Source of the DNA: Bacteroidaceae bacterium
Lineage (GTDB): Bacteria > Bacteroidota > Bacteroidia > Bacteroidales > Bacteroidaceae
Length of the DNA: 50,585 nucleotides
Direction: 5' to 3'
Assembly (NCBI GenBank): GCA_017481875.1
Contig: JAFUOP010000022.1
Coordinates: forward strand, 1-50,585
In this document: piece by piece, positions 3,478 through 19,078 of the stretch
How positions within the stretch are numbered: position 1 is the stretch's first letter
Layout of the letters: the number at the start of each line of letters is the position of its first letter
The notes under the pieces: model-generated
What the model was told of the DNA's origin: nothing
Database searches by the model: none
Seen by the model: the letters and a program-made list of their open reading frames with translations, nothing else
Program-made: the position numbers and the translations under genes

Positions 3478-6400
3478 ATGGTAATGATTAAGAATATGAA
3501 AAAGTGTTATTGGCTTGTTGTTACGGTATTATTGGCTTTGATGTTTGTTAGGTTGTTGTTCAACTACAACGACAGATTCGAGGAGGTAGAAGCCTGTTAC
3601 GGAACCAATCCTGTGACGAGTGTGAATCTTGCAAGCGGAGTGCAATCGAAAGACATAGCATCGGTGTTGCAGGTCCATAACTATGTTTCCCAACAGGCAG
3701 ATGCTGAATTTGTTGCCGACTTTATTGCAGAACAACTTAAAAAGGGCGTGTCTCTTCCGGCTCTATTTAACTTGAATAAGCGTGTTTGGCAGATTCCTGC
3801 ATCAAAGATTGATAGTATTGCCAAAATGAATAGGACAAGCAAGGATGAGTCTTATTATGTGAAGAAGTGGAAAAATTCTCTGGAACAGATAGGTGTTGAT
3901 GACGATTTCTTGAAACTTGATGTAAGCAAGTTGGAGAGTGTTGTCGTCCTTAATAAAGATCTGAAAGGTGAAATAAGAGTAACCGTAAATGAGGAAAAGA
4001 ATAAAAGTTTCTTTGCTGCTAAAAAGGGGTGCGAGGATGTTGTTGTTCGTCTGTCGCGTCAATATCTCGACAGTTTGAATGTTTCGCAAAGAGAAGTTCT
4101 GTGCTTTGCTAAAAGCAATTCCACTGGTGAGGTAGTGTTTAAAGGGCTCGAACCGAACTATTCATACAGCGTGTTACCCATTAAAAAGGGATTTGAATAT
4201 GGAAGTTCCCAAGGTACCGTCGGTGGCAATTTGGCTGAATATACCGATGGTGACCTTTCTGCGGCTTTCTCTTTTACTCAACTGGAACATAAAATAAGAA
4301 TCTTCGATGCTTCTACCTTGAAGCAGATAAAAGAGGACTTGACAATGACGGTGCGTTCTCCTAAGGAATTTGTTAGAATATTGTCAATGTACGTTGTATT
4401 ATTCTTTGTCGCTTGGTGGGGATTGTTGATATTCTGCCGTATGCGCAAAAAAGATATAAATATAGAGATATGGTCGATTCTGATGGCTCTCACCGGCTTG
4501 TGTCTTTTGACTATGTTCTCTATAAACGACCCATTAACGGATAAGTTGCTGGGTATAGATATGGCAAGCGGTATAATTGCGGGAGTCGTAATTATTGCAA
4601 TTTTGCAGAATGTGAATTTTAAGAAGCTGTATCAGAATAGGTTGAATGTCGACTTTGATGTTCCTTTGGAGATACTTTTGTGGGTGTTTAAGCCATTCAG
4701 ACAAAAGGTTTCCTATTTGACAAATATTCTTTCACAGCGTTCAAGTTCTTTCGTGAAGAAATCACTTGCACTGCTTTGTGTTGTGGTATGTTTGCCGTTC
4801 CTTTTTTTTGATCTTATAAGAATAACCGCTTTGCATAATGCTGTGTCCAGATTGTTGTGTAAACTACCAAAGGGAGGTGGCTACATATTGTTTGCTCTAT
4901 TCTTGACAATGTTGTTGTTTACTTCGTTGGGCTCCGAGGTGGGCGGAATGAAGGTAAACCTTAATGTCGGAATAATGTTCCAGCCGAGTGAAATTGCCAA
5001 ATACCTGATAGTGTTCTTTATGGCGGCCTTCTTCTGCGTGAATGCCAATAAAATTGTACAATTCTCGGAGAAGGGAAATACTAACTTGTTCGGTGCGAAA
5101 ATAAAGATGTTGACATCGGTTATTTTAGGCTTGGGGTGTTTGATGGTTATATATTTGAAATTGGGTGATATGGGGCCTTCTTTGGTCTTGGCCTTTACAT
5201 TCATACTTCTTTATTCGCTCATTAAATCTAAAATAGATTTGCAAGGCTTGTCTTGGGATAAACAGATGCAGAAGATATTCACTTGCGATTTTGCAATGTT
5301 GATATACGGCATACTCTCTTTTGCGTTGTTCCTTTATGTTGGTTACTCAATAGGGAATATGGGTATATTCTGTATTTTGTGGTTTGCTGTGTGGATTATA
5401 GGTGGCATTATTAAGAAGCAGATATTTGAAACGGCCATATTTTTCAATTTTATAGTATCGGCTTTTATATTCGGTGGAGCAGTGTTGGGCGATTTCGCCG
5501 GCTTTGACAGTGTCGCAAAAAGACTCGACTCGCGTAACGAGATGTGCACCAACACTTGGGGTACATTGCCTATAAATGGGAATACTGCCGATGCAGGAGA
5601 GAACACGCAGGTGGTCGAGGGGCTATGGGCCTTGGCCTCGGGTGGAATGTGGGGACAAGGTTTGGGCGATGGGTCGCCTCATCTTATTCCGGCGTTTCAC
5701 ACTGATATGATTCTTGAAAGTGTGGGCGAACAGTCGGGTTTTGTGGGTGTCTTTGTTATTATATTGCTTTTGGCGATTCTTCTACGAAATACGGTAGTTG
5801 TCGGGTATAGGACTTCCCACCCGTTTGTGTTTTATCTATGTTTGGGTATTGCCGTTGTTACTGCAATTCAATTTGTGGTTATTTCCCTTGGAAGTACCGG
5901 CATAATACCGTTGACAGGTGTTACGGTTCCTTTTTTCAGCTATGGAAAAGTAAGTATGATTTTAAATCTCACTGCTTTTGGAATAATCCTTTCTATATCT
6001 ACATATAATGCTGCCGATGTGGTTAAGGGTGAAAATGAAACGACCAAGCTGATTAGACAGAATATTGGCAAATATAACTATTCGGTATCGCTTTTGAGTT
6101 GGGCATATTGTGTGTGTGCTATATTTATAGCCTCGGTGTTCTATTATTATCAGATTATTGCTCAGGAGGATACATTGATAAGACCGGTTTATGTAGATAA
6201 TTCCAACGGTATTCCGGTTGTAGAGTATAATCCCAGAATCGAGGAGTTGACAAAGAAAATGTATGCCGGAGATATATATGACCGAAATGGATTGCTGTTG
6301 GCGACAAGCGATAAATTAAAGATTGATGAAAAATTAGATTCTCTATATAAAAGCATTTTAGGAAAGGATGATTATAAATTAGACTTGAATAAACGTCAGC

Positions 6401-7941
6401 GGAGGTATTATCCGTTTGGTGACCATCTGTCTTTTATGTTGGGAGATTATAATTCAAATTTATATACATTTAAAGATGAAAAGAGTGGATATGTTGCAGA
6501 ATGGCGACATTTACCGGAATTGAAGGGATATAATAATCTAATAGATGAGAATGGGAAACGAATGCCAAAGGTTGAGTTGGCTTCCGATTTATGTAAAGTT
6601 GATAAATGGAGCTCAGAAAAAACAAGAATAACTTCATATCATCAACTTTATAATTATTCCGCATTGATACCATATTTGAAGGCCGGAGTAAACAGCAGCA
6701 GGGTGCGTGACTTGAATAAGAGGGATGAGAGTTGGTTGGCTATGGGAAAAATTGAACCGCAAGATATTCGTCTCACGATTGATGCGGAACTGCAAGCACG
6801 TTTGCAAATAAAGTTGCAAGAATTTGTTAATGAGCAATATAAGAGTAGCAAGTGGCGCAATAAAGTTAGAGCGTCAGTTGTAATTCTAAATGCCGAAGAT
6901 GGAGATTTGTTGGCATCGGCCAATTATCCGTTGCCTAATCAGGATACTCTTAAAAATGAGTTAATAGAGATAAATGGTCAACGGAGGTTGCCAATATACA
7001 GGGATGCAGGTAGGCCAAAGAACTGGAAGGCCTATACTGATATGGATTTAGGCTTAATGCAGGCTCGTGCACCGGGTTCTACGGCTAAAATTATATCTTC
7101 ATTGGCCGGACTGCGTAAACTTGGTGTTGATGCTGCCGACCCGAATAATAAGAAGTATTCATACTATGTGCATTTGAGTCAGAAGGTTGGAGCTGAACCT
7201 GTCGGACAGATAAATATGAAGAGGGCTGTTGTAGAATCGTCTAACTGTTATTATATAAATTTAGTCAACAATTATGAATTGTATGATGACTTGTCGTATA
7301 TATATAGAGCTGTTGGTGCTGAAATTGGTTCAATAAAGCCTTATGTGCTGCATTATTCCGACTCAATATCGGCTGATAAATTTTATTCCAATATCGCTGC
7401 ATTGAATGTTGACAAAGCAATATCGAAATATCGTAAATATGTAGCAAATAATAGTAAGGAGATAATGCAAGATGCTGCTTGGCAAATAACTTGGGGACAG
7501 GGAGCATTGGCTGCTACTCCGCTGTCGATGGCAAGGGTTGCTTCTATTGTAGCAAATGATGGTACAATGACAACTACGCGATACAGACTTGATGAGAATG
7601 TGCAGACAATCGAGATTGTCGATGCATCCGAGGCTGCTGTTTTGAGTAAATTAATGGTAGAAGAAGCTGCTACTCACACCGCTTATAAAATAACATCCGA
7701 TAAAAATATTATTGGCGGAAAGACCGGTACGGCCAATCGTCACCTGACAGATAGAAAAGGGCGGAAACTGGAACATAGCAATGATTCTTGGTACATTTGT
7801 TATGTGAAAGACAAAGCAAAGCAAAAGAAATCACTTGCTATTGCTATTCGCATAGAACGTGGACAAAGCTCCGTGAATGCCAAAAAATTGGTTAAGGATG
7901 GTGTTCTCCCCCTGCTTATGAAACTCAACTATGTTAATTAA
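3478..7941 (+). CDS. RodA/FtsW (SEDS) glycosyltransferase fused to a class B penicillin-binding protein
   Basis: 1487 aa, predicted to polymerise and cross-link peptidoglycan. Residues 8-28 form a membrane segment, followed by an extracytoplasmic domain of about 270 aa. A second membrane segment lies near 300-320, and a polytopic SEDS domain runs from about 330 to 870. SEDS landmarks are FQPSEIAKYL, PAFHTDMIL with the conserved Asp at 743, and PFFSYGKVSM, where family members usually have Gly instead of Lys. A new membrane segment at about 874-897 begins the PBP half. It carries all three transpeptidase motifs: S1201-TAK, S1254-SN and K1415-TGT. SEDS proteins and class B PBPs normally are separate partners (RodA/PBP2, FtsW/FtsI); here they are covalently joined. 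In-frame ATGs at 3484 and 3496 are alternative starts; the last gives MKKCYWLV. First gene of the cluster. Confidence 0.93.
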   Translation: MVMIKNMKKCYWLVVTVLLALMFVRLLFNYNDRFEEVEACYGTNPVTSVNLASGVQSKDIASVLQVHNYVSQQADAEFVADFIAEQLKKGVSLPALFNLNKRVWQIPASKIDSIAKMNRTSKDESYYVKKWKNSLEQIGVDDDFLKLDVSKLESVVVLNKDLKGEIRVTVNEEKNKSFFAAKKGCEDVVVRLSRQYLDSLNVSQREVLCFAKSNSTGEVVFKGLEPNYSYSVLPIKKGFEYGSSQGTVGGNLAEYTDGDLSAAFSFTQLEHKIRIFDASTLKQIKEDLTMTVRSPKEFVRILSMYVVLFFVAWWGLLIFCRMRKKDINIEIWSILMALTGLCLLTMFSINDPLTDKLLGIDMASGIIAGVVIIAILQNVNFKKLYQNRLNVDFDVPLEILLWVFKPFRQKVSYLTNILSQRSSSFVKKSLALLCVVVCLPFLFFDLIRITALHNAVSRLLCKLPKGGGYILFALFLTMLLFTSLGSEVGGMKVNLNVGIMFQPSEIAKYLIVFFMAAFFCVNANKIVQFSEKGNTNLFGAKIKMLTSVILGLGCLMVIYLKLGDMGPSLVLAFTFILLYSLIKSKIDLQGLSWDKQMQKIFTCDFAMLIYGILSFALFLYVGYSIGNMGIFCILWFAVWIIGGIIKKQIFETAIFFNFIVSAFIFGGAVLGDFAGFDSVAKRLDSRNEMCTNTWGTLPINGNTADAGENTQVVEGLWALASGGMWGQGLGDGSPHLIPAFHTDMILESVGEQSGFVGVFVIILLLAILLRNTVVVGYRTSHPFVFYLCLGIAVVTAIQFVVISLGSTGIIPLTGVTVPFFSYGKVSMILNLTAFGIILSISTYNAADVVKGENETTKLIRQNIGKYNYSVSLLSWAYCVCAIFIASVFYYYQIIAQEDTLIRPVYVDNSNGIPVVEYNPRIEELTKKMYAGDIYDRNGLLLATSDKLKIDEKLDSLYKSILGKDDYKLDLNKRQRRYYPFGDHLSFMLGDYNSNLYTFKDEKSGYVAEWRHLPELKGYNNLIDENGKRMPKVELASDLCKVDKWSSEKTRITSYHQLYNYSALIPYLKAGVNSSRVRDLNKRDESWLAMGKIEPQDIRLTIDAELQARLQIKLQEFVNEQYKSSKWRNKVRASVVILNAEDGDLLASANYPLPNQDTLKNELIEINGQRRLPIYRDAGRPKNWKAYTDMDLGLMQARAPGSTAKIISSLAGLRKLGVDAADPNNKKYSYYVHLSQKVGAEPVGQINMKRAVVESSNCYYINLVNNYELYDDLSYIYRAVGAEIGSIKPYVLHYSDSISADKFYSNIAALNVDKAISKYRKYVANNSKEIMQDAAWQITWGQGALAATPLSMARVASIVANDGTMTTTRYRLDENVQTIEIVDASEAAVLSKLMVEEAATHTAYKITSDKNIIGGKTGTANRHLTDRKGRKLEHSNDSWYICYVKDKAKQKKSLAIAIRIERGQSSVNAKKLVKDGVLPLLMKLNYVN

Positions 7942-7955
7942 GGATTACTAATGTT

Positions 7956-8447
7956 ATGAAAAAGATTTTATTTTTATTATTACTGTTGACTGCAAATGTT
8001 TCCTTTGCACAAGTACAAGTTAGAGAATATGAAAGAATAAGTGTCGAGGAGATAGTATTGTGTAAAAGTTATAAATCTGTTGCATATAATTTTGTATATG
8101 CTTTTATAAATAGAGATATAGCCAAGGTGAGAAACTTTTATGAATGGGATGCCTATTCTGAATTTGGTGGCGATGTAATGATGATACAGGGCTTTGAGAA
8201 AATTCACGATATTGCCGATATGCGTAATGTTATTCCGCTTGGTTATTATCCGGTTGTAACAAGATGTGATGAATTGAATGTTTCAAATATAGGGTCGTAT
8301 GCAGGATGTAAAGCTATGAATGTAAGGTTCGATTGCGCAACTCCGAATGGAGAATTCTACGATGGTAGATATGGACGTTTTGATACAAATGTTCGTGTAA
8401 TGCTGGTTTTGTTGAATGGTAATTGGAAAGTAATAGGTTTTAAATAA
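7956..8447 (+). CDS. Small secreted protein, NTF2-like
   Basis: 163 aa. A signal peptide (MKKILFLLLLLTANVSFAQ) predicts export. After it come a helical stretch around residues 43-62 (AYNFVYAFINRDIAKVRNFY) and a C-terminal run of strands ending NGNWKVIGF, the usual ending of NTF2/SnoaL-like domains that carry one helix set packed on a curved sheet. No catalytic site is evident. It starts 14 bases after the SEDS-PBP fusion and ends 13 bases before the kinase, so it is surely in the same transcript. A periplasmic ligand- or protein-binding partner of the fusion or of the kinase is plausible but inferred. Confidence 0.75.
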   Translation: MKKILFLLLLLTANVSFAQVQVREYERISVEEIVLCKSYKSVAYNFVYAFINRDIAKVRNFYEWDAYSEFGGDVMMIQGFEKIHDIADMRNVIPLGYYPVVTRCDELNVSNIGSYAGCKAMNVRFDCATPNGEFYDGRYGRFDTNVRVMLVLLNGNWKVIGFK

Positions 8448-8460
8448 TTTTATAAAAAAT

Positions 8461-10422
8461 ATGGCGTTTTTAGAAGACTATACTTTGTTGGATGAACTTG
8501 GGCAGGGTGGATTTGCCACTGTCTATAAGGTTCGTCATAATAATTTAGGCTATATAAGAGCTCTTCGTGTATTGAATGCGACAATCGCACGTGGAGAGAA
8601 GGATGAGGCTTATCAAAAATTTCTGGAAGAGTGCCGATTGTTGCTCCGGTTGGGTAATGGCAATCATCCCAACATAGTACACATTTATCAACCTTTGCTG
8701 AAAGCTCAAAAAGCAATTGTTGAGATGGATTTTGTCGATGGTAAAGATTTGTCCCATTATCTTATAGACAAACACTCTTTTATGGAGATAGAAGATGTGT
8801 TAAGATTGCTGACCGATATTGGTAGCGCATTGGCCTACTGCCACGAGGATATATATAAATCCTGTATGGATAAAGAGCTTGACAATTTGCTCGACGATCC
8901 TAATGATGGGCGTAAAGCGTTGATTGATGACGATACAAAGCGTCGATTGATTGATAAGTATCGCGTTGTGCACAACGACATACACTCCGGCAATATTATC
9001 CGTCGCGAAAATGGAAGTTATGTGTTGCTGGATTTTGGCTTGGCCATTGAGGGCGAAAGTGTTATAAGGAGTAGCCGTCGCAAGAATGGCGCACCCGAAT
9101 TTAAGGCACCCGAGAAGTGGGATAACGAGAGTTTGCTTGCTCCCCAATCCGATATATATAGCTTTGGTGTAGTCTTATATGAATATCTTGCGGGTAGGGT
9201 TCCCTTTATGCGCGATATTAAGAACCACAATTCTGTTGAGGCTGAATATTTGCTGGTGAAAGCCCATAAAGAGCAAAAGCCGGCTCCGATATTTGAATTG
9301 CGAAAAGCCGCTTTTGAGCAGGCTCACCCCGGTGAGACTTATGAAAAAGATTATCCCGATTGGTTGGAAGATGTTATTTTTAAATGTCTGGAAAAATCTC
9401 CCGACAACCGCTTTAAAAATGGCAAAGATTTGTATACCAGTGTTTTAAAGTATATAGGTTCCGATAGGGATGTTTTAACTAACAACTTGAAATTAGAGGC
9501 CGAACAATCGCAGAAAGAGATTGCTCATCTGCAAGAGGAGATTAAGCATTTTAAGAGTGAAATTAATCGTTTGCTGGAACAGAAAGCCGATTTTCCTAAT
9601 CCGGCTGAGCACGAGAAACTTATACTGAATTTGCAAAATCAGTTAAAAGATGTCCTGTATGCGAAGAGTATGCTCGAAATGGAGGTGAAAAACTTGCGAG
9701 CCACGAATGAAAGATTAAAGGTGGAGACGGGAGTGGAGAACAACGATAAAAAACTTTATGAAAGAATAGAGGAACTGGAAAATGCGTTGAAACAAGCCGA
9801 AGAAGAGTTGCAACAGATTCCAAATAAGTTGTCCGTAGCTATCAAAGAAAATGATGAATTAAAGAAAGAGATTGTCACTCTGAAAAAAAATACCGGGAAA
9901 GGTGGCGCGAAAATATGGAAAATCTTGTTCCTTGTGATGTTTGCACTTGCATTCTTTTCGTGGGCTATAAACATTACACAATCATCTACCGGCAAAGATA
10001 CAGAGTATAAGGAGAAGTATAATGCCGAGTTGAAAAAAAACAAGGAACTTGCAGCAGCAGTGAAAGAACTTGAAAAAGCTAATTTCAATGGTGAAACAGG
10101 TAGCAATAATTCCACAATTAAGAACTTGAAGGATGAGCTGGCTGCAAAGGATGCTATAATAGCCGATCTTTCTTCTAAAATATCAGGTTTGGAGAAGAAT
10201 GCGACAAGTTCCGGAGGTATGACCGATGCATTATCGGAATTGAATACACAGTTGCAGGAAATAGAGGCTGAGAATGCAGCTTTGAAGAACCAGCTTGCTG
10301 CGGCAAAGAAAAAAATAGGGGCCGGAACTAATCAAGATGCTGAAATAAAGAAACTTAAAAAGACGATAGAAGAGAAGGAACGTTTAATAAAGGTGTTGAA
10401 TACTCAATTGGGAGTACAATAA
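8461..10422 (+). CDS. Membrane Ser/Thr protein kinase-like protein with periplasmic coiled coil
   Basis: 653 aa. Residues 7-330 are a protein kinase domain: glycine loop GQGGFATVYKV (15-24), catalytic-loop HND at 171-173 followed by HSGN178, and DFGLA at 191-195, then KAPEKW and DIYSFGVVLYE. Two key positions are unusual: the beta-3 Lys is Arg (RALRVL, R36) and the usual catalytic-loop Lys is His, giving an HxDxxxxN pattern as in aminoglycoside phosphotransferases. Cytosolic coiled coil follows (about 340-475), one membrane segment (about 485-508), and a periplasmic coiled coil to the end, rather than PASTA repeats. It is the likely sensor kinase, opposed by the PP2C gene at 12231 and read by the FHA proteins between. 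Whether it is an active kinase or a pseudokinase is open. Confidence 0.88.
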   Translation: MAFLEDYTLLDELGQGGFATVYKVRHNNLGYIRALRVLNATIARGEKDEAYQKFLEECRLLLRLGNGNHPNIVHIYQPLLKAQKAIVEMDFVDGKDLSHYLIDKHSFMEIEDVLRLLTDIGSALAYCHEDIYKSCMDKELDNLLDDPNDGRKALIDDDTKRRLIDKYRVVHNDIHSGNIIRRENGSYVLLDFGLAIEGESVIRSSRRKNGAPEFKAPEKWDNESLLAPQSDIYSFGVVLYEYLAGRVPFMRDIKNHNSVEAEYLLVKAHKEQKPAPIFELRKAAFEQAHPGETYEKDYPDWLEDVIFKCLEKSPDNRFKNGKDLYTSVLKYIGSDRDVLTNNLKLEAEQSQKEIAHLQEEIKHFKSEINRLLEQKADFPNPAEHEKLILNLQNQLKDVLYAKSMLEMEVKNLRATNERLKVETGVENNDKKLYERIEELENALKQAEEELQQIPNKLSVAIKENDELKKEIVTLKKNTGKGGAKIWKILFLVMFALAFFSWAINITQSSTGKDTEYKEKYNAELKKNKELAAAVKELEKANFNGETGSNNSTIKNLKDELAAKDAIIADLSSKISGLEKNATSSGGMTDALSELNTQLQEIEAENAALKNQLAAAKKKIGAGTNQDAEIKKLKKTIEEKERLIKVLNTQLGVQ

Positions 10423-10431
10423 ACAATAAAT

Positions 10432-11259
10432 ATGGGAATGAATTTTTTTGAACGAATAGCCAACCTTATAAATGGTAATAAGGCTGAAAATATAAGTGAA
10501 GTTACCGATTCGAGTAAATATTCACAAAATGCAATAAATAAAAATGCCCTTTTATTAGAGCGTATAGTATCTGTTCTAAAATCGAACTATGCAGGAATAA
10601 AAGTGTCGATGATAGAAAAGTCTTTAACTCTGTGTGTTAACGATGCTTTATTCTATGATTCTTTGATGTTGAGCAATTTTAAAGAGCAATTGATAACAAC
10701 AATTATCGACGAATTGGGCTTGGAGTTTGGTTCGGTTGAAATTAAAGACACAAAACCGGTCGATAGTAATTGGGTCGAGGTAATGGATAATTGTTTCTTG
10801 CTGATAGAAACCATCAGGCAGAAACAGATGGTGCATAGGGCCGTTATATCTACTGTGGCTGGTTATGGATCGATACTCGATGGGTGTCTTACTCTCGATT
10901 CGCAGGAAATTCAAAAATTGCCCAATTCGAGATATAATATCGGTGTCGGCAGACAACCGCGTATGTCTGATGGGAGTCATAGAGTAAACCAAATTGCAAT
11001 AGATGATAATCCAGATTCGCCGGAATATAACAATAATAAATACGTCAGCAGGGCTCACGCATATATCTCATATTCCGACAAATGCGGATTTATGTTGTGT
11101 GTGGAACTGTCAGGCACGCGCGCCGCTCAAAAACGCACCCATATTTATAGAGGCGCAAACAAGATAGAGCTTAATAATACTTTGATTCCCGAACAGTTGC
11201 ACGATGGGGATTACATAGTGTTGAGCAAATATGTTCATTTATTATTTAAAAAGGTATAG
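10432..11259 (+). CDS. FHA-domain protein (phosphothreonine reader)
   Basis: 275 aa, soluble. The C-terminal half (about 165-275) is a forkhead-associated domain with the phosphothreonine-binding residues: R174 in GVGRQP and S206-R-A-H209 in VSRAHAYI, ending in DGDYIVLS. The N-terminal region (about 36-108) is a separate alpha/beta domain (SLTLCVND, then helices, then FGSVEIKD) that vaguely resembles the N-terminal domain of actinobacterial FhaA. Nine bases separate it from the kinase gene and two from the next gene. It probably binds the phosphorylated kinase or fusion protein; partners are inferred from context. Confidence 0.85.
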   Translation: MGMNFFERIANLINGNKAENISEVTDSSKYSQNAINKNALLLERIVSVLKSNYAGIKVSMIEKSLTLCVNDALFYDSLMLSNFKEQLITTIIDELGLEFGSVEIKDTKPVDSNWVEVMDNCFLLIETIRQKQMVHRAVISTVAGYGSILDGCLTLDSQEIQKLPNSRYNIGVGRQPRMSDGSHRVNQIAIDDNPDSPEYNNNKYVSRAHAYISYSDKCGFMLCVELSGTRAAQKRTHIYRGANKIELNNTLIPEQLHDGDYIVLSKYVHLLFKKV

Positions 11260-11261
11260 CG

Positions 11262-12218
11262 ATGGATTTCTTAAAAAAAATGCTGGATATATTTAAACCT
11301 GAAAAATTGACAAATGAAGGTTTAATCACAAATGAGGGCTTGCTTAAAGAACTTTCTTCTCATTTTAAAACTATGTTGAAAAGTGAGTCGGTGGGGCAGC
11401 GAATGTTATATCCTATGTCCTTTAACATACTAATGACCCCCGAAGACTATGAAAGCCGAAAGCAATCTTTGCCTTTTGTGTTACCGCAAGTTGTTGCCGG
11501 GTTCTACAAAATTATTAAAGAAATGAGGGTGAAATATCCCGACTACACCCCTCCTGCCAAGTATTGGTTCTTTCAATTCTCGGCCTGCCAAGTGGGCGAG
11601 GTTCAGTCAAACAATACTGCCTCATTGATTGTTCGCAAAGGTCACATAGCAACAGTTGCCAACCTCTTGACATTCGATATAAAAGAAGCAAATAATGTGT
11701 TTGCCGATACTAACACCCGTATGTCGATAAAATTGGACGATTCAAATGTTATGAATGATGTGAATGTTAACTGGAATGCAATAAAAAGTCTTGACATTAT
11801 CGGTGATGGTACTTTCTGTTATAACTTCGATAATAATCTGGGTGGCGATATACAGCGCGTTACCGACTATTCGAGTGTGACGGATATGGGCGGTCTTGCC
11901 GAATTGACATATTCAAGAGGTGGACGCAACCTTCATTATATAATGAAGGACAATCTTATTCACATATCCGGAAGGAGTGAAAAACGAAGCGGGCGTGCGT
12001 TCTTCATTCTGGAAGAACACGACATAAAAGACTCTCACGTGCAGATAAAATATTTACCTTCGGATAAGAGATTCCAGATTGCGGCTTTCGGGCCTACAAG
12101 GCTTAATAGTCGCAAATTGGTAGAGAGCAGTGGAGGCGATTTAATTTGGCACGACCTTGCCAATAATTCCAGTATATTCATTAACGACGAGATAAGTATA
12201 AAATTTGAAATTAAATAA
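11262..12218 (+). CDS. FhaA-like protein: DUF3662-like N-terminus and degenerate FHA-like C-terminus
   Basis: 318 aa, soluble. Residues 28-105 (LLKELSSHFKTML, then YPMSFNILMTPEDYE, a long helix, then KYWFFQFSA) follow the layout of the FhaA N-terminal domain (DUF3662): helix, P-N-x-[FY]-x-[IV]-x-L-x-x-x-D-[FY] strand, helix, final strand. The C-terminal 90 residues look FHA-like (ISGRSEKRSGRAFF, then KDSHVQIKY), but the SRxH signature is altered to SHVQ, so phosphothreonine binding may be lost. It starts two bases after the previous gene and is 12 bases from the PP2C gene. The DUF3662 match is from memory of sequence patterns and needs a profile search. Confidence 0.6.
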   Translation: MDFLKKMLDIFKPEKLTNEGLITNEGLLKELSSHFKTMLKSESVGQRMLYPMSFNILMTPEDYESRKQSLPFVLPQVVAGFYKIIKEMRVKYPDYTPPAKYWFFQFSACQVGEVQSNNTASLIVRKGHIATVANLLTFDIKEANNVFADTNTRMSIKLDDSNVMNDVNVNWNAIKSLDIIGDGTFCYNFDNNLGGDIQRVTDYSSVTDMGGLAELTYSRGGRNLHYIMKDNLIHISGRSEKRSGRAFFILEEHDIKDSHVQIKYLPSDKRFQIAAFGPTRLNSRKLVESSGGDLIWHDLANNSSIFINDEISIKFEIK

Positions 12219-12230
12219 AAGCATTATAAT

Positions 12231-13391
12231 ATGGATACGATAATATTCTCCGGTAATACCGATATGGGGCAGAAACGCTCTAATAATGAAGATGCTTTCA
12301 TTGCTCAATCTTTGTGGAATGGCAACTATATTCTAGCAGCTGCCATAGATGGAGTTGGTGGCTATGAAGGAGGGGAAGTTGCTTCTGCTTTGGCTCAACA
12401 AAAAATAGTGGAGTATCTCGAAACATATCCTAATGGTGAGCGTTCGGAACTTATTAAACAAGCTGTGGTCTATGCCAATAATGCTATTTTTGCGGAGCGT
12501 CAGAACCAGCCGGAATATGGCAGTATGAGTTGTGTGTTGACCGCAGTGCTGGTTGAGGTCGACAAGAAACTTATACATATGGCTCACGTGGGAGATACGC
12601 GCCTCTACCAATATACATACGGTCATATAATGAAGTTGTCGCACGACCACTCTTTGGTGGGGTATCGTGAGGAAATTGGTGAACTTACCGAGCTTGAAGC
12701 TATGAGCCACCCTCAACGTAATGTTATAAGTCGCGATGTGGGCTCAAAATTGCTCGAAGGCAATGAAAGTGATTATGTAGAGGCTGCAACGTTTCCCTTG
12801 CTTCCCAATTCCACTCTGTTGTTATGTTCCGACGGTCTTTGTGATATGATAACATCGGAACAGATGAAGGAGTGTATCGAGGGGAAGGGAATTCTCAAAG
12901 AAAAAGTGGCAAGCCTCATTGCTGCTGCAAACAAAGCCGGTGGAAAAGACAATATAACCGTTGTGCTTATCGAGTATAACTGCCCCGACTATAACCCCGA
13001 AGAGGTACTTGTAGCCGAGCCGTCGGAAAAATCCACAGAGAATGATAATAGCGTTAGTGAGAATCGAGAGAGTGAATCGCAGTCGATAGAGCCCGAAAGG
13101 GCATTGACCGAGAACTCTGCTACAAAGAACGGGGGTGGAAAATTGGTTTATTCCATTTTAATTATTTTCTCCATTGTTATGTTTGTTGCCGGCTATGTTC
13201 TTGGCGGATATACAGGAAAAGAGTATTTCCCGGCATTCTTCTCTCACAGAATAGACTCTGTGTTTGTGAATAATGTCAGTGATAGTATAGGAGAGGGTAT
13301 AATTCAACCTCAATCCACGGATATTCCCACCGATTCTTCTACTGTTCAACCCCCAATGGAAGAGTCTGTTGTAGAAACCGAAGAACAATAA
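12231..13391 (+). CDS. PP2C-type Ser/Thr phosphatase with membrane anchor (PstP-like)
   Basis: 386 aa. Residues 1-248 form a PP2C catalytic domain with metal ligands intact: NNED (D21), AAIDGVGGYEGGE (D40, G41), AHVGDTRLY, CSDGLCDM (D201) and GGKDNIT (D240). An acidic linker (about 250-300) follows, then one membrane segment (about 304-327) and a 60-residue extracytoplasmic tail. The architecture is that of mycobacterial PstP. It should dephosphorylate the kinase and its targets at the inner membrane. It lies 12 bases after the FhaA-like gene. Confidence 0.92.
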   Translation: MDTIIFSGNTDMGQKRSNNEDAFIAQSLWNGNYILAAAIDGVGGYEGGEVASALAQQKIVEYLETYPNGERSELIKQAVVYANNAIFAERQNQPEYGSMSCVLTAVLVEVDKKLIHMAHVGDTRLYQYTYGHIMKLSHDHSLVGYREEIGELTELEAMSHPQRNVISRDVGSKLLEGNESDYVEAATFPLLPNSTLLLCSDGLCDMITSEQMKECIEGKGILKEKVASLIAAANKAGGKDNITVVLIEYNCPDYNPEEVLVAEPSEKSTENDNSVSENRESESQSIEPERALTENSATKNGGGKLVYSILIIFSIVMFVAGYVLGGYTGKEYFPAFFSHRIDSVFVNNVSDSIGEGIIQPQSTDIPTDSSTVQPPMEESVVETEEQ

Positions 13392-13411: not shown

Positions 13412-14128
13412 ATGAGATACGCATTTATATTTCTATTAGTTCTGTTTTGTCCGCTCGGAGCCTTCTCACAGAATTATTTTGAGTACATAGAGAAGGCTCA
13501 CGAACATCTGCACGCCGGAAATTATGTGAAAGCAAAGGAGTGTTACAATGTTTTTGTGAGTATGACCGATAAAAGGGATGCCGATTTAGAGCATATTTTT
13601 GAACTTGTAGCCGAGAAACCCGATAAAAATGAGGTGGAACAGATTACCATAAAGTATAACAATGGTACATATAAAGGTACTTGCCTCGAAGGTAAACGGG
13701 ATGGTTATGGCGTGTTCACTTATAATAATGGCGAAAGATATGAGGGTTATTGGGATAATGACGAGCTGAATGGCCCCGGAATGTATTATTATGATAATGG
13801 TGATAAATTTGTGGGTTTATACAAAGAAGGTGTAAAAAATGGTAAAGGTACTTACTATTATGGCAGTGGAGAAAAGTTTATCGGATATTACGAGAATAAT
13901 GTGATTGTGGGAGAAGGAGAGTTTCATTATATCAATGGCGATAAGTATATAGGACATTTTGAAAATAATAGAAGACACGGCTCCGGAACATACTATTACA
14001 ACAATGGTGATAAGTTTGTGGGCACTTACAGGAACGATTATCCACACGGAGAGGGAGTTTACTATTTTAGCAATGGTACAACGCGCTCGGGAATTTGGGA
14101 ATTTGGTCGCCTTGTAAAGAGTAATTAA
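13412..14128 (+). CDS. Secreted MORN-repeat protein
   Basis: 238 aa with an N-terminal signal peptide (cleavage near AFSQ). Residues 21-65 are a TPR-like helical module (YIEKAHEHLHAGNYVKAKEC). The rest, from about 82, is six to seven MORN repeats of 23 residues (YxGxxxxxxxxGxGxYxxxxGxxF), ending WEFGRLVKSN. MORN repeats form elongated sheets that scaffold membranes or proteins; here they would act in the periplasm or at the outer membrane. Shares its N-terminal module with the next two exported proteins. 20 bases after the PP2C gene. Confidence 0.88.
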   Translation: MRYAFIFLLVLFCPLGAFSQNYFEYIEKAHEHLHAGNYVKAKECYNVFVSMTDKRDADLEHIFELVAEKPDKNEVEQITIKYNNGTYKGTCLEGKRDGYGVFTYNNGERYEGYWDNDELNGPGMYYYDNGDKFVGLYKEGVKNGKGTYYYGSGEKFIGYYENNVIVGEGEFHYINGDKYIGHFENNRRHGSGTYYYNNGDKFVGTYRNDYPHGEGVYYFSNGTTRSGIWEFGRLVKSN

Positions 14129-14167
14129 GTGATAGACTTTTAATAGTATAATTGTAATTATATATAT

Positions 14168-15115
14168 ATGATGAAGCAGACAACAGTTAATATATTGTTC
14201 TCTTTGTGTTTATTGCTCGTATCTGTGCAGGTGGCCTCACAAGATAAGGAGTTATATTTAAAAACAGCAAAAACGCAGTTTGAGAAAGGAGAGTATGCCA
14301 ATGCTCAAAAATCACTGAATGTGTTTGTAGCTGCTTTCAATGGTCGCGCCGATGAACTTGCCTCAAAAATAGAAGAGTGCCTCTCGTTGACAGCAAAAGC
14401 CGAGGATGCTATTTATAAACAGGATATGAGTGTGGCGATAGATAACTATCGCAAGATATTGTCCATAAATCCCAAAGACCCGAATGCACGCAACAGGGTT
14501 GCGGAATTCGAAAAGTCGCAGGGGCGAAAAGTACACGCCACCGACAGCCGCGCCGTGGACCTTGGTCTTTCGGTTAAATGGGCATCGTGTAACGTTGGTG
14601 CCACCTCTCCAGAAGAGTATGGCCGTTACTACGCTTGGGGAGAAACAGAGGAAATGAACGACAATTATTGGGATACCTATAAATATTGCAACGGCACTTC
14701 TTCTTCAATGACAAAATACTGCACAAGCAGCAGTTACGGCACCGTCGATAATAAAACCACCCTTGAAGCAAGCGACGACGTTGCCACTGTTAAATGGGGT
14801 GGTAGTTGGCGTATGCCCACCACAGAAGAACAGCAAGAACTTATAGACAAATGCACTTGGACTTGGACCAGCCTTAACGGCGTTAACGGTTACCGCGTAA
14901 CCGGCCCCAACGGCAACAGCATCTTCCTGCCCGCTGCGGGCTACCGCTACGGGCAGGAAGTCTACTTTCAGGGCTCCTACGGCTACTATTGGTCGAGCTC
15001 GTTGAATAGCAGTAGCAGCTCTCACGCTTACTACTTGTACTTCAACATCGGCGACTACTACCGGTACTACAGCAACCGTTACTACGGCCACACGGTGCGC
15101 CCTGTCTCAGAATAA
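14168..15115 (+). CDS. Secreted protein: TPR-like module plus Fib_succ_major domain
   Basis: 315 aa. The signal peptide is followed by two TPR-like helical pairs (AKTQFEKGEYANAQKSLNVF at about 34-53; IYKQDMSVAIDNYRKIL), then from about residue 125 a Fibrobacter-succinogenes-major-paralogue domain (VDLGLSVKWASCNVGATSPE, YYAWGETE, WRMPTTEE, FLPAAGYRY, YYWSSS, HTVRPVSE). That domain is common in secreted Bacteroidota proteins and its function is unknown. Base composition changes sharply at the domain boundary (about 14525): the last 590 bases are much richer in G+C than the rest of the cluster, suggesting the domain arrived by recombination. Alternative start: the next ATG in the doubled ATGATG. 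Confidence 0.82.
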   Translation: MMKQTTVNILFSLCLLLVSVQVASQDKELYLKTAKTQFEKGEYANAQKSLNVFVAAFNGRADELASKIEECLSLTAKAEDAIYKQDMSVAIDNYRKILSINPKDPNARNRVAEFEKSQGRKVHATDSRAVDLGLSVKWASCNVGATSPEEYGRYYAWGETEEMNDNYWDTYKYCNGTSSSMTKYCTSSSYGTVDNKTTLEASDDVATVKWGGSWRMPTTEEQQELIDKCTWTWTSLNGVNGYRVTGPNGNSIFLPAAGYRYGQEVYFQGSYGYYWSSSLNSSSSSHAYYLYFNIGDYYRYYSNRYYGHTVRPVSE

Positions 15116-15615
15116 CAAAAAGCTCGTTTTTTGTTATCGGCGAGTTTTGCGGCCAATGGTCGCGTGCAGCATAGACGAAGTTTATGCCACGCGGGTGGCG
15201 AAAAGTAAAACGAGCCAATGAAACAAAAGAACGAGCGTTTTATCGCTCGACAGGCGATAAAACTCAATCATCGACGCAGTCGATTTAACAGTGCCGCAGG
15301 CACGATTTAATTATTAGAAGGTAATTATATACAATTTTACATTAACAGAAAAACAGATAAGAATCCGTTATCTCGACCATACCTTAATATAAAAATTAAA
15401 AGAGGTTTTCGATGAGCTATGCGAATAACGTATGTGAGAGATCTATCAGATTTCTCGTCGCTACGCTCCCACGAAATGACAAATGGGTGTAATATTATAT
15501 AATCACCTTAATTTATTTTTCGCACGTTTTTTGTGCAGGCACGATTTAATTTCCGGCAGCCATTTTGTAGAGTGGGAGTGGAAATTTGGTATAATAATAT
15601 AGAGTTATAGAGTTT
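15116..15615. repeat. 500-base gap with small palindromic repeats
   Basis: No gene seen. GAGCGTTTTATCGC (15233-15246) pairs with GCGATAAAACTC (15254-15265). Two small hairpins with a GCA loop follow: ATCGAC/GTCGAT at 15270-15284 and GTGCC/GGCAC at 15291-15303, each running into GATTTAA. A third GGCACGATTTAA copy lies at 15538-15549. The segment near 15440-15475 (CTCGTCGCTACGCTCCCACG) looks like a dispersed extragenic repeat. The first 200 bases share the high G+C content of the preceding domain. Confidence 0.6.
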
Positions 15616-16137
15616 ATGAAACACACATTTTTTATTTTAATGTTGCTTTTCTCTTCGCTTGCGGCTTCGGCACAAGTAAACTATGACAAATATCTGCAAG
15701 AGGCAAAGAGAAATTTGCAGGAGGGTAATGGCGAGAAGGCTTTGTCGTGCTACGAGGTGTACAAGACAATGACCGGTAACACAAATAAGGAGTTCGAGTC
15801 TATGCTCGAACACTATAAGATAGTAGAGGAGAGCGTGTCGCGCGTTCATCTGCTTGTGACAGATGAAAAGATTGGTAAACAACACCACGCTACAATAATG
15901 AAAGTTGTGCGGTTCCATAAAAACACACCGGGTTCAAGAATTGTTGTGTGTGGTTTTGGCGACCTGTCGTTGCCAATGGAGTATGCCCAGATGCTATGTG
16001 AACGACAAGTGAAATCCGTGACCGATTTTCTTGTTAAAAATGGCGTTGCCCGCGAAAATGTTGCGATGGAGTCGCGTGGTGGCACATCCTCCGGCGATGA
16101 TGATTATAATATTTTGATATTTGTGACAGAGGAATAA
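15616..16137 (+). CDS. Secreted OmpA-like protein with TPR-like N-terminus
   Basis: 173 aa. Signal peptide (cleavage near ASAQ), then the same N-terminal helical module as the two preceding exported proteins (YLQEAKRNLQEGNGEKALSC). From about residue 92 an OmpA-like domain follows: IMKVVRFHKNTPGSRIVVCG, then ERQVKSVTDFLVKNGVARENV and ESRGG. This matches the OmpA pattern of strand, Arg-helix and closing strand but lacks the usual N-D-x-R signature, so peptidoglycan binding is uncertain. It follows the palindrome-rich gap and may begin a second transcript. Confidence 0.7.
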   Translation: MKHTFFILMLLFSSLAASAQVNYDKYLQEAKRNLQEGNGEKALSCYEVYKTMTGNTNKEFESMLEHYKIVEESVSRVHLLVTDEKIGKQHHATIMKVVRFHKNTPGSRIVVCGFGDLSLPMEYAQMLCERQVKSVTDFLVKNGVARENVAMESRGGTSSGDDDYNILIFVTEE

Positions 16138-16190
16138 CCACTAATATATCGGGTTATATTTCCCAACAAGGTTGTTAAGTTGTATAGACT

Positions 16191-16832
16191 ATGAAATATC
16201 TGTATTATCCCATAATATTGTTGCTGTTGGTACCGGTTGTAATAGAATTTTTCCCGGTGTTTATGTTTGCGTGCAGTCACATAGCTCTCTATCAATGGAT
16301 GCTGTATGGTGCTGCGGCCTATTTCATAATTCGAAAATTCGATTTTTTCTCTCGCAATGAGCAATGGATGCAAACAACTTCTCACGAAGCTACTCACGCA
16401 ATTGTGGGAATGATGTTTTTTCACAAGATACATTCGTTGCAGGCAGGTGAAGATAGTGGCGTGGTCTATCATAGCGGGCGTAAACTTGGTGCGATATTCA
16501 TAAGTCTGGCACCATATTGCCTGCCGTTCCTCACCTATCTGTTTATAATAATGCGCATTTGGGGTGCCAACAGAATGCTCTATGTGTTTGATATGTTCAT
16601 AGGCTTTACATTGGCCTTTCATATATTGTGCTTTTTTAAGCAAACAAGGCTCTATCAGCCCGATATTTTGGGGCAAGGTATTTTGCGCTCCTTTTTGTTT
16701 ATTGTAACTGCGTGGTTCTTTAATGCGACAATTATATTGTTGTGTATAAGAAAGGGCTTGGTAAATTCTTTGTGTTATATATTCCCTAAATATTGGGATG
16801 ATATTGTAAATTGCTGGAATTATATATTCTGA
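16191..16832 (+). CDS. Membrane HExxH metallopeptidase, M50-like
   Basis: 213 aa with several membrane segments. SHEATHAIVGMMFF places an HExxH zinc motif (H65, E66, H69) at the start of a hydrophobic helix, as in site-2 (M50) proteases. A short VVYHSGRKLGAIFISLAPY segment follows and resembles the loop and helix after the motif in M50B members. The third zinc ligand is not obvious. Regulated intramembrane proteolysis of a neighbour such as the kinase or phosphatase is an attractive idea but only inferred. Six bases separate it from the next gene. Confidence 0.65.
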   Translation: MKYLYYPIILLLLVPVVIEFFPVFMFACSHIALYQWMLYGAAAYFIIRKFDFFSRNEQWMQTTSHEATHAIVGMMFFHKIHSLQAGEDSGVVYHSGRKLGAIFISLAPYCLPFLTYLFIIMRIWGANRMLYVFDMFIGFTLAFHILCFFKQTRLYQPDILGQGILRSFLFIVTAWFFNATIILLCIRKGLVNSLCYIFPKYWDDIVNCWNYIF

Positions 16833-17596: not shown

Positions 17597-19078
17597 ATGA
17601 ATACAATTTCGATGAAAATTCAAGAGGCGTATGCCGATTATGCAATATGCAAGGATAAGTCGGCCTATGGCTTGTTCTCGGGTAGAAACTTGCCCACTTT
17701 TGTTAAAGACTACATTTTAAATCGTTTTTCAAATGGAGAAGAACGCGACGAGGAGGGAATACGCGAGTATCTTGCAGCAAAAATGCCACAGAATAGCGAT
17801 TCGCTTATGATGCGTCTTCTCGAAGGGGAGAATGTAAATATAACAACACGCATTGTGGTTAAAACAAAATTAGACGATGGAATGGTGGCTTTTATGTTGC
17901 CCGATTTAAATATTTCGGCCAATATGTTTATACAACCAAAGGTTGTTGCCGATAATAGGAACGACCTTGTCGATGGAGAGAATTGGGGTAATATAACAAT
18001 GCAATATATGCCGCCCGAAGGGAAAAAGAAGGGGTATGTTCTAATGACTTCCTATAAATCCTTTAACCCTTATAAGAATTTGAATTTCGAGGATTTCTTG
18101 TCGCGCAGGGCACTTTTCAGTACCGAGGAGTGGATTGATGTACTGTTGACCACAATGGGATATACACCGGATAGCTTCCCCTCATTTGAGGCGAAATTTA
18201 CAATGATTACAAGGCTGTTGCCGGCTATCGAGCCTAACTTGAACTTTATTGAGCTTGGCCCAAAATCTTCGGGTAAAAGTTTTACCTACAATAATCTCAG
18301 CCAATATTTTCGTATGATTAGTGGCAAGTGTACAAGGGCGCAGTTAATATATAACCATTCTACCAAGCAATACGGTGCAATTAAAAATCACGACTTAATA
18401 GTCTTTGACGAAGTATCGACATTGAAATTTGACGACCGCACCGGGGAGTTGCAGGGATTCCTTAAAAGTTTTTTGGAGGCGGGTACAGCTTCTCTAACCG
18501 ATATAAAAATTGTTTCGTCGTGTGGCCTTGGCTTGGCAGGGAATATTGCTCTTACCGAGGATATGCAACCCGTGAACGAAGATTTTCAACAGGTCCTCCC
18601 CGATATATTCCGTTCCTCTGCAATGATGGACCGTTTCCATTTGTTTATCCCGGGGTGGAGATTGCCTAAAATATCAGAAGGACAACTCTATTATGGTTGG
18701 GCAATAGATGCAGAAGTCTTTTCGGAGTATCTGCACTTTATGAGAACAGAAACATATAGCCAGAATATCTTTGATGAGCTGGTCGAGTATGACAAGAATG
18801 CTGCGTATGTTCGGCACGCAAAGGCTGTGAAAAAGATTGCAACGGCTTATTGCAAATTGCTTTTCCCGCATATTGAAACGATAAACGGAATGGCCGAGGA
18901 GGACTTGGCTACTTTTAAGAAGTTGTATAAAGAGTATTGTTTGCTCCCGGCAATTGAGGCCCGTTCTTATATTTATGAACAGTGTAAACTCGTTGATAGT
19001 GAATATAAGTATAATAGCTTGCCCGAATTCTCTATTATTGATGATGTTGCCGAAGAGGAGCAAGGTGCCGATGAGTAG
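17597..19078 (+). CDS. BrxL-like AAA+ ATPase
   Basis: 493 aa. The region from about 170 to 390 follows the BREX-system Lon-like protein BrxL: LFSTEEWIDVLLTTMGY, ELGPKSSGKSF (Walker A at 221-228), DLIVFDEVS (Walker B at 266-272) and the later MDRFHLFIPGWRLPK segment. A full Lon-type protease domain is absent; the length fits the shorter BrxL class of about 450 aa rather than the class of about 680 aa. BrxL is a DNA-binding AAA+ ring in phage defence. Here none of brxA, brxB, brxC, pglX or pglZ is nearby; the neighbours are envelope and phospho-signalling genes. Its job here is unknown. Confidence 0.8.
   Translation: MNTISMKIQEAYADYAICKDKSAYGLFSGRNLPTFVKDYILNRFSNGEERDEEGIREYLAAKMPQNSDSLMMRLLEGENVNITTRIVVKTKLDDGMVAFMLPDLNISANMFIQPKVVADNRNDLVDGENWGNITMQYMPPEGKKKGYVLMTSYKSFNPYKNLNFEDFLSRRALFSTEEWIDVLLTTMGYTPDSFPSFEAKFTMITRLLPAIEPNLNFIELGPKSSGKSFTYNNLSQYFRMISGKCTRAQLIYNHSTKQYGAIKNHDLIVFDEVSTLKFDDRTGELQGFLKSFLEAGTASLTDIKIVSSCGLGLAGNIALTEDMQPVNEDFQQVLPDIFRSSAMMDRFHLFIPGWRLPKISEGQLYYGWAIDAEVFSEYLHFMRTETYSQNIFDELVEYDKNAAYVRHAKAVKKIATAYCKLLFPHIETINGMAEEDLATFKKLYKEYCLLPAIEARSYIYEQCKLVDSEYKYNSLPEFSIIDDVAEEEQGADE

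Follow-up and report, generated by a model that had tools for sequence, protein, structure and literature searches.

A conserved Bacteroidota gene set with a fused SEDS-class B PBP synthase, a probable counterpart of the actinobacterial fhaA-to-pknB locus

In Actinomycetota, the gene set fhaA-fhaB-pstP-rodA-pbpA-pknA-pknB is described as governing growth and division in passages of PMC6554272, in which Bacteroidota do not figure. The locus was read in records of Tsukamurella, Actinomyces oris, and Arthrobacter, and as far as pbpA in one of Nonomuraea. The annotated order is a DUF3662 plus FHA protein, an FHA protein, a PP2C phosphatase, FtsW/RodA, PBP2, a kinase, and PknB; in one of these loci the PP2C gene is missing from the annotation but present in the sequence. 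The locus described here lies at positions 3478–13391 on the plus strand of a 50,585-nucleotide stretch of DNA from a Bacteroidaceae bacterium (assembly GCA_017481875.1, contig JAFUOP010000022.1, positions 1 to 50,585; the whole stretch is called the window below). It encodes a polypeptide in which a SEDS glycosyltransferase is fused to a class B penicillin-binding protein (PBP), together with a Ser/Thr kinase, an FHA protein (FHA1), an FHA-like protein (FHA2), and a membrane PP2C phosphatase. A first-pass annotation made from the sequence had noticed these genes on one strand with gaps of 2–14 bases and had proposed that they correspond to the actinobacterial locus, the rodA and pbpA genes having fused. 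The gene content was confirmed, and the counterpart is supported by a neighborhood survey and by the SEDS and PBP family matches. We consider it probable that the locus is the Bacteroidota form of an ancient set, of which the actinobacterial locus is the other known form, and that it encodes a phospho-gated accessory SEDS-PBP synthase. In agreement with the annotation, which knew of no account of such a locus, no description of the Bacteroidota set or of a natural SEDS-PBP fusion was found in the open-licence papers searched, outside which most subscription papers lie. The genes of the window locus are as follows:

3478..7941, plus strand: SEDS glycosyltransferase-class B PBP transpeptidase fusion, 1487 amino acids (aa); Pfam PF01098 at 5.2e-36 and PF00905 at 2.3e-24
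7956..8447, plus strand: 163-aa protein with a hydrophobic N-terminus, outside the conserved core; no Pfam family at the 0.1 level
8461..10422, plus strand: Ser/Thr kinase with a coiled-coil-like C-terminal part, 653 aa; Pkinase at 1.5e-34, weak matches to coiled-coil families
10432..11259, plus strand: FHA1, with the Ser-Arg-x-His signature, 275 aa; PF00498 at 0.0021 (18.9 bits; cut-off 20.7)
11262..12218, plus strand: FHA2, FhaA-type by profile comparison with actinobacterial FhaA, with an FhaA_N-like N-terminal and a C-terminal FHA-like domain, 318 aa
12231..13391, plus strand: PP2C Ser/Thr phosphatase, 386 aa; PF13672 (PP2C_2) at 6.8e-15

Successive genes are separated by 14, 13, 9, 2, and 12 bases. 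By hydropathy, the fusion has 16 membrane segments, the kinase (residues 488–506) and the PP2C (305–323) have one each, and FHA1 and FHA2 have none. The window genome is 75.8% complete and consists of 48 contigs.

Named genomes were scanned with a profile of the fusion, and the best 80 of 312 relatives were taken as a sample, each locus being read up to 10 kb on either side of the fusion. All 80 loci belong to Bacteroidota by name, including gut and rumen Bacteroidales, Spirosoma, Fibrella, Niastella, Mucilaginibacter, Pedobacter, and others. The five gene types occur together on one strand in 63 of them; besides the 80 fusions, FHA1 was seen in 76 loci, PP2C in 73, a kinase in 71, and FHA2 in 70. 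In ten of the 17 incomplete loci, one or both flanks of the fusion are cut off before 5 kb, and the remaining seven, with longer flanks, miss one to three types (L079, L080, L092, L096, L097, L105, and L117). The gaps between core genes have a median of 19 bases and are no longer than 150 in 279 of 324 cases, and any other gene family adjoins the core in 21 of 81 loci at most. The five genes thus form a real unit, beyond chance, and the kinase, FHA, and PP2C genes are conserved beside the fusion, as a homologous or analogous locus required. The 163-aa gene between fusion and kinase, absent from the list of the first-pass annotation, has a relative near only one of the 80 fusions (L082) and is therefore not part of the core. 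A search with an FHA2 profile alone gave a concordant picture, as in each of the nine other genomes found among 395 of the phylum FHA2 has PP2C, the fusion, FHA1, and one or more kinases next to it. The 80-locus sample overlaps with the genomes searched here, since four of its loci appear to be those of G035, G793, G159, and G431. Within the genus, a full fusion was found in one (G035) of 36 other genomes, many of which are incomplete. Its line-up is fusion, kinase, FHA1, FHA2, and PP2C, without the 163-aa gene and without the genes that follow the operon in the window. The whole set is also present, annotated gene by gene, on a Spirosoma oryzicola plasmid (L065, NZ_CP089545.1), which PLSDB types as non-mobilizable.

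The most frequent arrangement places FHA2 and PP2C before the fusion and FHA1 after it (54 of 80 loci). Kinases lie between PP2C and the fusion in 25 of these 54 loci (the Spirosoma and Niastella type), and in the Pedobacter and Mucilaginibacter type, where seen, they lie before FHA2, after FHA1, or both. Comparison with the actinobacterial loci indicates that the order of FhaA, PP2C, and SEDS-PBP is kept and that the position of the second FHA gene is not. In the 1 Mb Arthrobacter sp. StoSoilB13 record labelled as a plasmid (L066), which is perhaps a piece of a chromosome, the locus extends from fhaA to pknB and its rodA frame is broken.

The homology of the two loci is supported by the N-terminal domain of FHA2, the grouping of the SEDS half, and the FHA2-PP2C-fusion order in 54 of 80 loci, so that homology is favored where the first-pass annotation had left open an analogous or a homologous relation. 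Profile comparison by hhalign matched FHA2 to actinobacterial FhaA at an E-value of 3.6e-8 over 239 columns, with an FhaA set that included one FhaB row. After removal of that row, the N-terminal domain matched at 1.4e-5, with a score of 36.5 against a maximum of 18.3 in 200 column shuffles. FHA2 proteins beside fusions in genomes of another class scored 26.5 (L236), 23.7 (L235), 19.9 (L234), and 18.4 bits (L222) against PF12401, for which the cut-off is 25; the window FHA2 itself matched no Pfam family. By the hhalign and PF12401 evidence, FHA2 has the layout of FhaA, an FhaA_N/DUF3662 domain followed by FHA. The two FHA proteins differ in their signature residues. In FHA1, the signature Ser and Arg are kept in 75 of 77 aligned copies and the His in all 77. 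FHA2 lacks the Ser-Arg signature; its His is kept in 70 of 71 copies and is preceded by Pro in 55 of 71 and by other residues in the rest. FHA1 does not seem to have the form of FhaB, a short protein with an N-terminal membrane helix and an FHA domain, since the window copy shows no membrane segment by hydropathy. Its N-terminal part has no convincing match to the N-terminal domains of FhaA and FHA2.

The fusion starts with a helix at about residues 10–28, an extracytoplasmic insert at 30–300, and a second helix at 301–319, followed by the SEDS core up to about 860 and the PBP at about 880–1487. It matches FtsW, RodA, PBP2, and PbpA chains in the PDB. In a residue alignment of 80 fusions, which excludes one truncated row (L088), the SEDS HTD motif and the SxxK, SxN, and KTG residues of the PBP are present in all 80, as are the other SEDS and PBP residues checked, apart from Ser for the Thr of KTG in five and one Tyr kept in 69. 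The two halves are thus a SEDS protein, with PF01098 over its cut-off and the Asp of HTD, a motif also found in Pseudomonas aeruginosa FtsW, and a class B PBP transpeptidase, as the first-pass annotation had read them. The RodA-PBP2 and FtsW-FtsI pairs also join a SEDS protein to a class B PBP with the same catalytic residues, but as two polypeptides, and no dedicated kinase, phosphatase, or FHA genes are known to adjoin them. A catalytic Asp in a DPWAD-like stretch, seemingly lost in the fusion, was considered and dropped, as the Asp of HTD is kept throughout; its equivalent in Escherichia coli FtsW, D297, is listed with H295 and T296 as a putative catalytic residue of extracellular loop 4 (ECL4) in PMC8765783. 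The insert resembles a carboxypeptidase regulatory-like domain, under the cut-off in three of five N-terminal parts tested, all from fusions other than that of the window, and over the cut-off in L234.

In a SEDS tree of 53 rows, the fusion grouped with six actinobacterial SEDS proteins and one clostridial SEDS on a branch supported at 99/94, and the same grouping was obtained at 99/95 in a tree of 43 rows to which four less divergent fusions from the other class were added. Profile scores for the fusion point the same way (actinobacterial SEDS 298, Bacteroidota FtsW group 241, Bacteroidota RodA group 204; the names of the two Bacteroidota groups were assigned here from length, tree group, and common usage). 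The approximately unbiased (AU) test gave p-values of 0.048 and 0.0038 for a union of the fusion with the Bacteroidota FtsW group. By trees and profile scores the SEDS half is of the actinobacterial RodA type, with a union with the Bacteroidota RodA group not rejected by the AU test. A RodA assignment from NCBIfam was discarded, as the ftsW model outscores rodA for the fusion; this score is itself uninformative, because pieces of Arthrobacter RodA behave alike. In a quick tree, the PBP half falls on the PBP2/PbpA side as opposed to FtsI and PBP1, without a firm order within that side; among the rows of this tree are also four additional fragments of fusions, of which two duplicate other rows, and one PBP in two pieces. 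A clostridial cluster in Monoglobus pectinilyticus (L069:6828–9813) likewise has adjacent genes for an FHA protein, a SEDS of the actinobacterial group (97/93), and a PBP, but these are separate genes, and no kinase, PP2C, or FhaA-type gene is annotated in the 16 kb read.

In the PP2C proteins, the Asp residues checked are intact in all 75 rows, and one Glu is Gln in 20 of them. The window PP2C matches NF033484 (Stp1/IreP) at 8.7e-59 with 198.8 bits, under the cut-off of 230. In a PP2C tree with few outgroups, 17 of 19 operon-side rows grouped with four PstP proteins apart from three other Bacteroidota PP2Cs (100/99), and the other two, from L091 and from an additional PP2C gene in L086, fell with the latter. 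This grouping and the membrane segment characterize the operon PP2C as a PstP-type membrane phosphatase. In G793, the operon is followed at a distance of about 8 kb by a second PP2C of the same type (L225:19380–20000), which is cut by the end of the stretch.

Among 146 genomes of the other class, fusions were found in five, including G239, a one-contig genome in which a single frame of 1384 codons (L222:10262–14416) contains PP2C (11–246 by the profile built here), SEDS (504–834), and transpeptidase (1073–1372) domains, flanked by FHA2 on the upstream side and FHA1 on the other. A close relative, G090, has two genes instead, with 82 bases between them: one for a PP2C of 326 aa that is hydrophobic close to its C-terminal end, and one for the fusion. 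Comparison of the junctions showed that the G239 phosphatase has no hydrophobic stretch of its own and runs into the first helix of the fusion, so that, as read from these sequences, the predicted membrane helix of the phosphatase is replaced by that of the fusion. This topology is consistent with a phosphatase that stays in the cytoplasm while attached to the synthase. A kinase and WD40 repeats share one frame (L222:2604–5117) some 4 kb upstream of FHA2 in G239. The other loci of this class are looser: L234 has FHA2, PP2C, fusion, and FHA1, and L235 and L236 have FHA2, fusion, and FHA1.

The window kinase belongs to an unusual group. It has Arg for the Lys of the VAIK motif, at which it departs from active Hanks-type kinases, and HND for HRD; DFG and both catalytic Asp residues are kept. 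Among 106 kinase rows, the VAIK position holds Lys in 84, Arg in 21, and a gap in one. The 21 rows with Arg are spread over 17 of 72 loci, the window and loci in the range L074–L096; all have the form HND-[ILMV]-H. Fourteen of the other 16 loci are named as Bacteroidales or its families, and two (L089 and L090) only as Bacteroidetes/Bacteroidia. From this residue pattern, the Arg/HND kinases look like a conserved subfamily and not like decay. The first-pass annotation, which listed a Ser/Thr kinase, had overlooked the Arg. The kinase part matches NCBIfam NF033483 at 133.8 bits (cut-off 450).

Two further SEDS genes, one of the FtsW group and one of the RodA group, are present in seven of eight genomes, and in the incomplete window genome only the RodA-group one was seen. 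Because two other SEDS genes are usually present, the fusion is an accessory peptidoglycan synthase and not the general elongation system; it is also rare. In Mycobacterium, with which the first-pass annotation compared it, the set controls elongation by phosphorylation. FHA2 was detected in 14 of 395 phylum genomes, full length in 10, and in two of 393 genomes of the order, the window genome being counted in both. Three of the four partial matches of the phylum search are another FHA protein, though their genomes hold a fusion elsewhere (two of the three stretches were read). The matches in G191 and G073 are to this different FHA protein, with no fusion in the stretches read (L223 and L224); the fusions of G191 and G094 are on other contigs, and that of G073 is on C34. 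The FHA2-based prevalence is a lower bound for the fusion set, because the FHA2 search did not detect G090, whereas the search with the fusion did. G191 also has a second fusion of 1307 aa (L238:5165–9088) with a kinase at 112–909, and no FHA gene was found beside it in the 14.8 kb read.

On these grounds, a mechanism may be proposed. The kinase and PP2C, placed in the same membrane, would set the threonine phosphorylation of cytoplasmic parts of the complex, be it the kinase itself, FHA2, or loops of the fusion. FHA1, in which the phosphothreonine-binding signature is kept, would dock on the phosphorylated form, FHA2 would serve as an FhaA-type scaffold holding the assembly, and docking would switch the fused synthase on or off. 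The signal is probably sensed outside the membrane by the insert of the fusion or by the tail of the kinase. Both the control of the wall synthase by phosphorylation and the direction of this control are what we infer from the gene set.

Like the actinobacterial locus, the Bacteroidota set brings together an FhaA-type protein, an FHA protein, a membrane PP2C, a SEDS of the same group, a class B PBP, and one or more adjoining kinases. Unlike it, the SEDS and PBP are fused and carry a large extracytoplasmic insert, FHA1 has no membrane segment, and the set is accessory and rare, providing a third SEDS beside two others. Several observations weigh against reading the two as forms of one set. None of the operon FHA2 proteins in the 11 genomes searched, the window included, is recognized by the Pfam FhaA_N model, and FHA1 resembles FhaA through its FHA domain only. 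FhaA is present in the loci of only three of the six actinobacterial SEDS rows (Tsukamurella, Actinomyces, and Nonomuraea) and was not found in the Streptomyces, Embleya, and Streptantibioticus stretches read. FHA1 follows the fusion, whereas fhaB precedes pstP, and the Bacteroidota kinases often lie between PP2C and the fusion. Among the other-class loci, each read over 20 kb, L234, L235, and L236 show no kinase, and L235 and L236 no PP2C; a kinase, seen in 71 of the 80 surveyed loci, is absent beside the fusion in three of the four other-class stretches read. Pfam finds no PASTA domain, the mark of PknB, in the window kinase (the search covered this kinase and that of L222, the latter among the best 25 families). 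As to the first-pass suggestion that the sensor was exchanged for a coiled coil, a coiled-coil-like tail was seen by eye in the window and G035 but not in all relatives aligned. Of the 72 loci with a kinase, 14, the window included, have no kinase with the VAIK Lys. As for the synthase itself, residue 824, the second Gly of SYGGSS and the equivalent of G381 in E. coli FtsW, is Lys in the window; among ten aligned fusions it is Gly in six, Lys in three (window, L061, and L062), and Asn in one. The substitution G381D is dominant-negative in E. coli FtsW according to PMC8765783.

Part of this evidence would be explained by convergence, in which a fusion derived from Bacteroidota RodA and PBP2 gathered kinase, FHA, and PP2C genes, all common modules, and came to work like the actinobacterial locus while being unrelated to it. 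The profile scores of the PBP half (Bacteroidota PBP2 238, PbpA with the Monoglobus PBP 190, FtsI 153) favor such an origin, so that the half first read as pbpA is a class B PBP but is closer to Bacteroidota PBP2 in profile. The AU test did not reject a union of the SEDS half with the Bacteroidota RodA group (p 0.11 and 0.088), and the order in the window (fusion, kinase, FHA1, FHA2, PP2C), shared by eight of the 80 loci, all Bacteroidales by name, is unlike the actinobacterial one. The FhaA_N-type domain of FHA2, the actinobacterial grouping of the SEDS half in both trees (99/94 and 99/95), and the FHA2-PP2C-fusion order in 54 of 80 loci speak against convergence, and we regard it as unlikely. 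It is also conceivable that the set is a conditional system for wall repair or stress, whose phosphoproteins mainly control gene expression or another process, with the fusion only a target or a neighbor. Such a system would suit an accessory and sparse set, seen beside two other SEDS genes in seven of eight genomes and with FHA2 in so few genomes of the phylum and order, and a response-regulator-like gene family, recognized by eye, lies near 21 of 81 loci. No other family comes near the core more often than this, and a natural frame unites PP2C, SEDS, and PBP; this alternative seems quite improbable. A further possibility, compatible with the phospho-gated synthase, is that the kinase of the window group is a pseudokinase and that the set runs by scaffolding or by outside kinases. 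The 21 kinase rows of 106 in which Arg replaces the VAIK Lys, all of them with HND-[ILMV]-H, speak for it. The catalytic Asp, the Asn, and DFG are nonetheless kept (DFD in L076), a Lys kinase is also present in three of the 17 loci (L083, L084, and L086, that of L083 on the other strand), and the conservation of the group argues for function, so that a pseudokinase is a serious but still doubtful alternative.

Returning to the phospho-gated synthase as the Bacteroidota form of an ancient set, it may predate the split of Actinomycetota and Bacteroidota or have passed between them. In Bacteroidota, fusion would then have proceeded stepwise, joining polymerase and cross-linker and later the phosphatase, and the Bacteroidales kinase would have become Arg-for-Lys; we put this history at a little short of an even chance. 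If the proposed reading is true, the natural fusions would directly place the action of PP2C on the SEDS-PBP complex or inside it, with consequences for the actinobacterial locus as well. In actinobacteria, separate genes, some of them essential, make it difficult to trace the route from kinase, phosphatase, and FHA proteins to RodA-PbpA. The Bacteroidota set can probably be deleted, as it looks accessory, and since the halves of the synthase, and in one lineage the phosphatase too, are fused in one chain, their coupling would be directly testable in easily handled soil bacteria. With this set, a wall synthase under dedicated Ser/Thr phospho-control would be known from a Gram-negative phylum as well.

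In the window, the operon is followed on its strand by MORN-repeat, TPR/Lcl_C, OmpA-like, and M50B-like genes (13412–16832), the last of which has relatives near the core in L074, L078, and L080. They are followed on the same strand by BrxL, a Lon-like BREX protein (17597–19078); no other BREX genes were noticed in the window, where the family scan covered genes up to 20122. A defense-system reading, based on BrxL and on PADLOC matches of the kinase, was set aside, as none of the 80 loci has a gene nearby that clusters with BrxL, and the matches of the kinase are of a generic kind. On the minus strand, a second Ser/Thr kinase-like gene with leucine-rich-like repeats was recognized by eye at 45665–47545 of the window.

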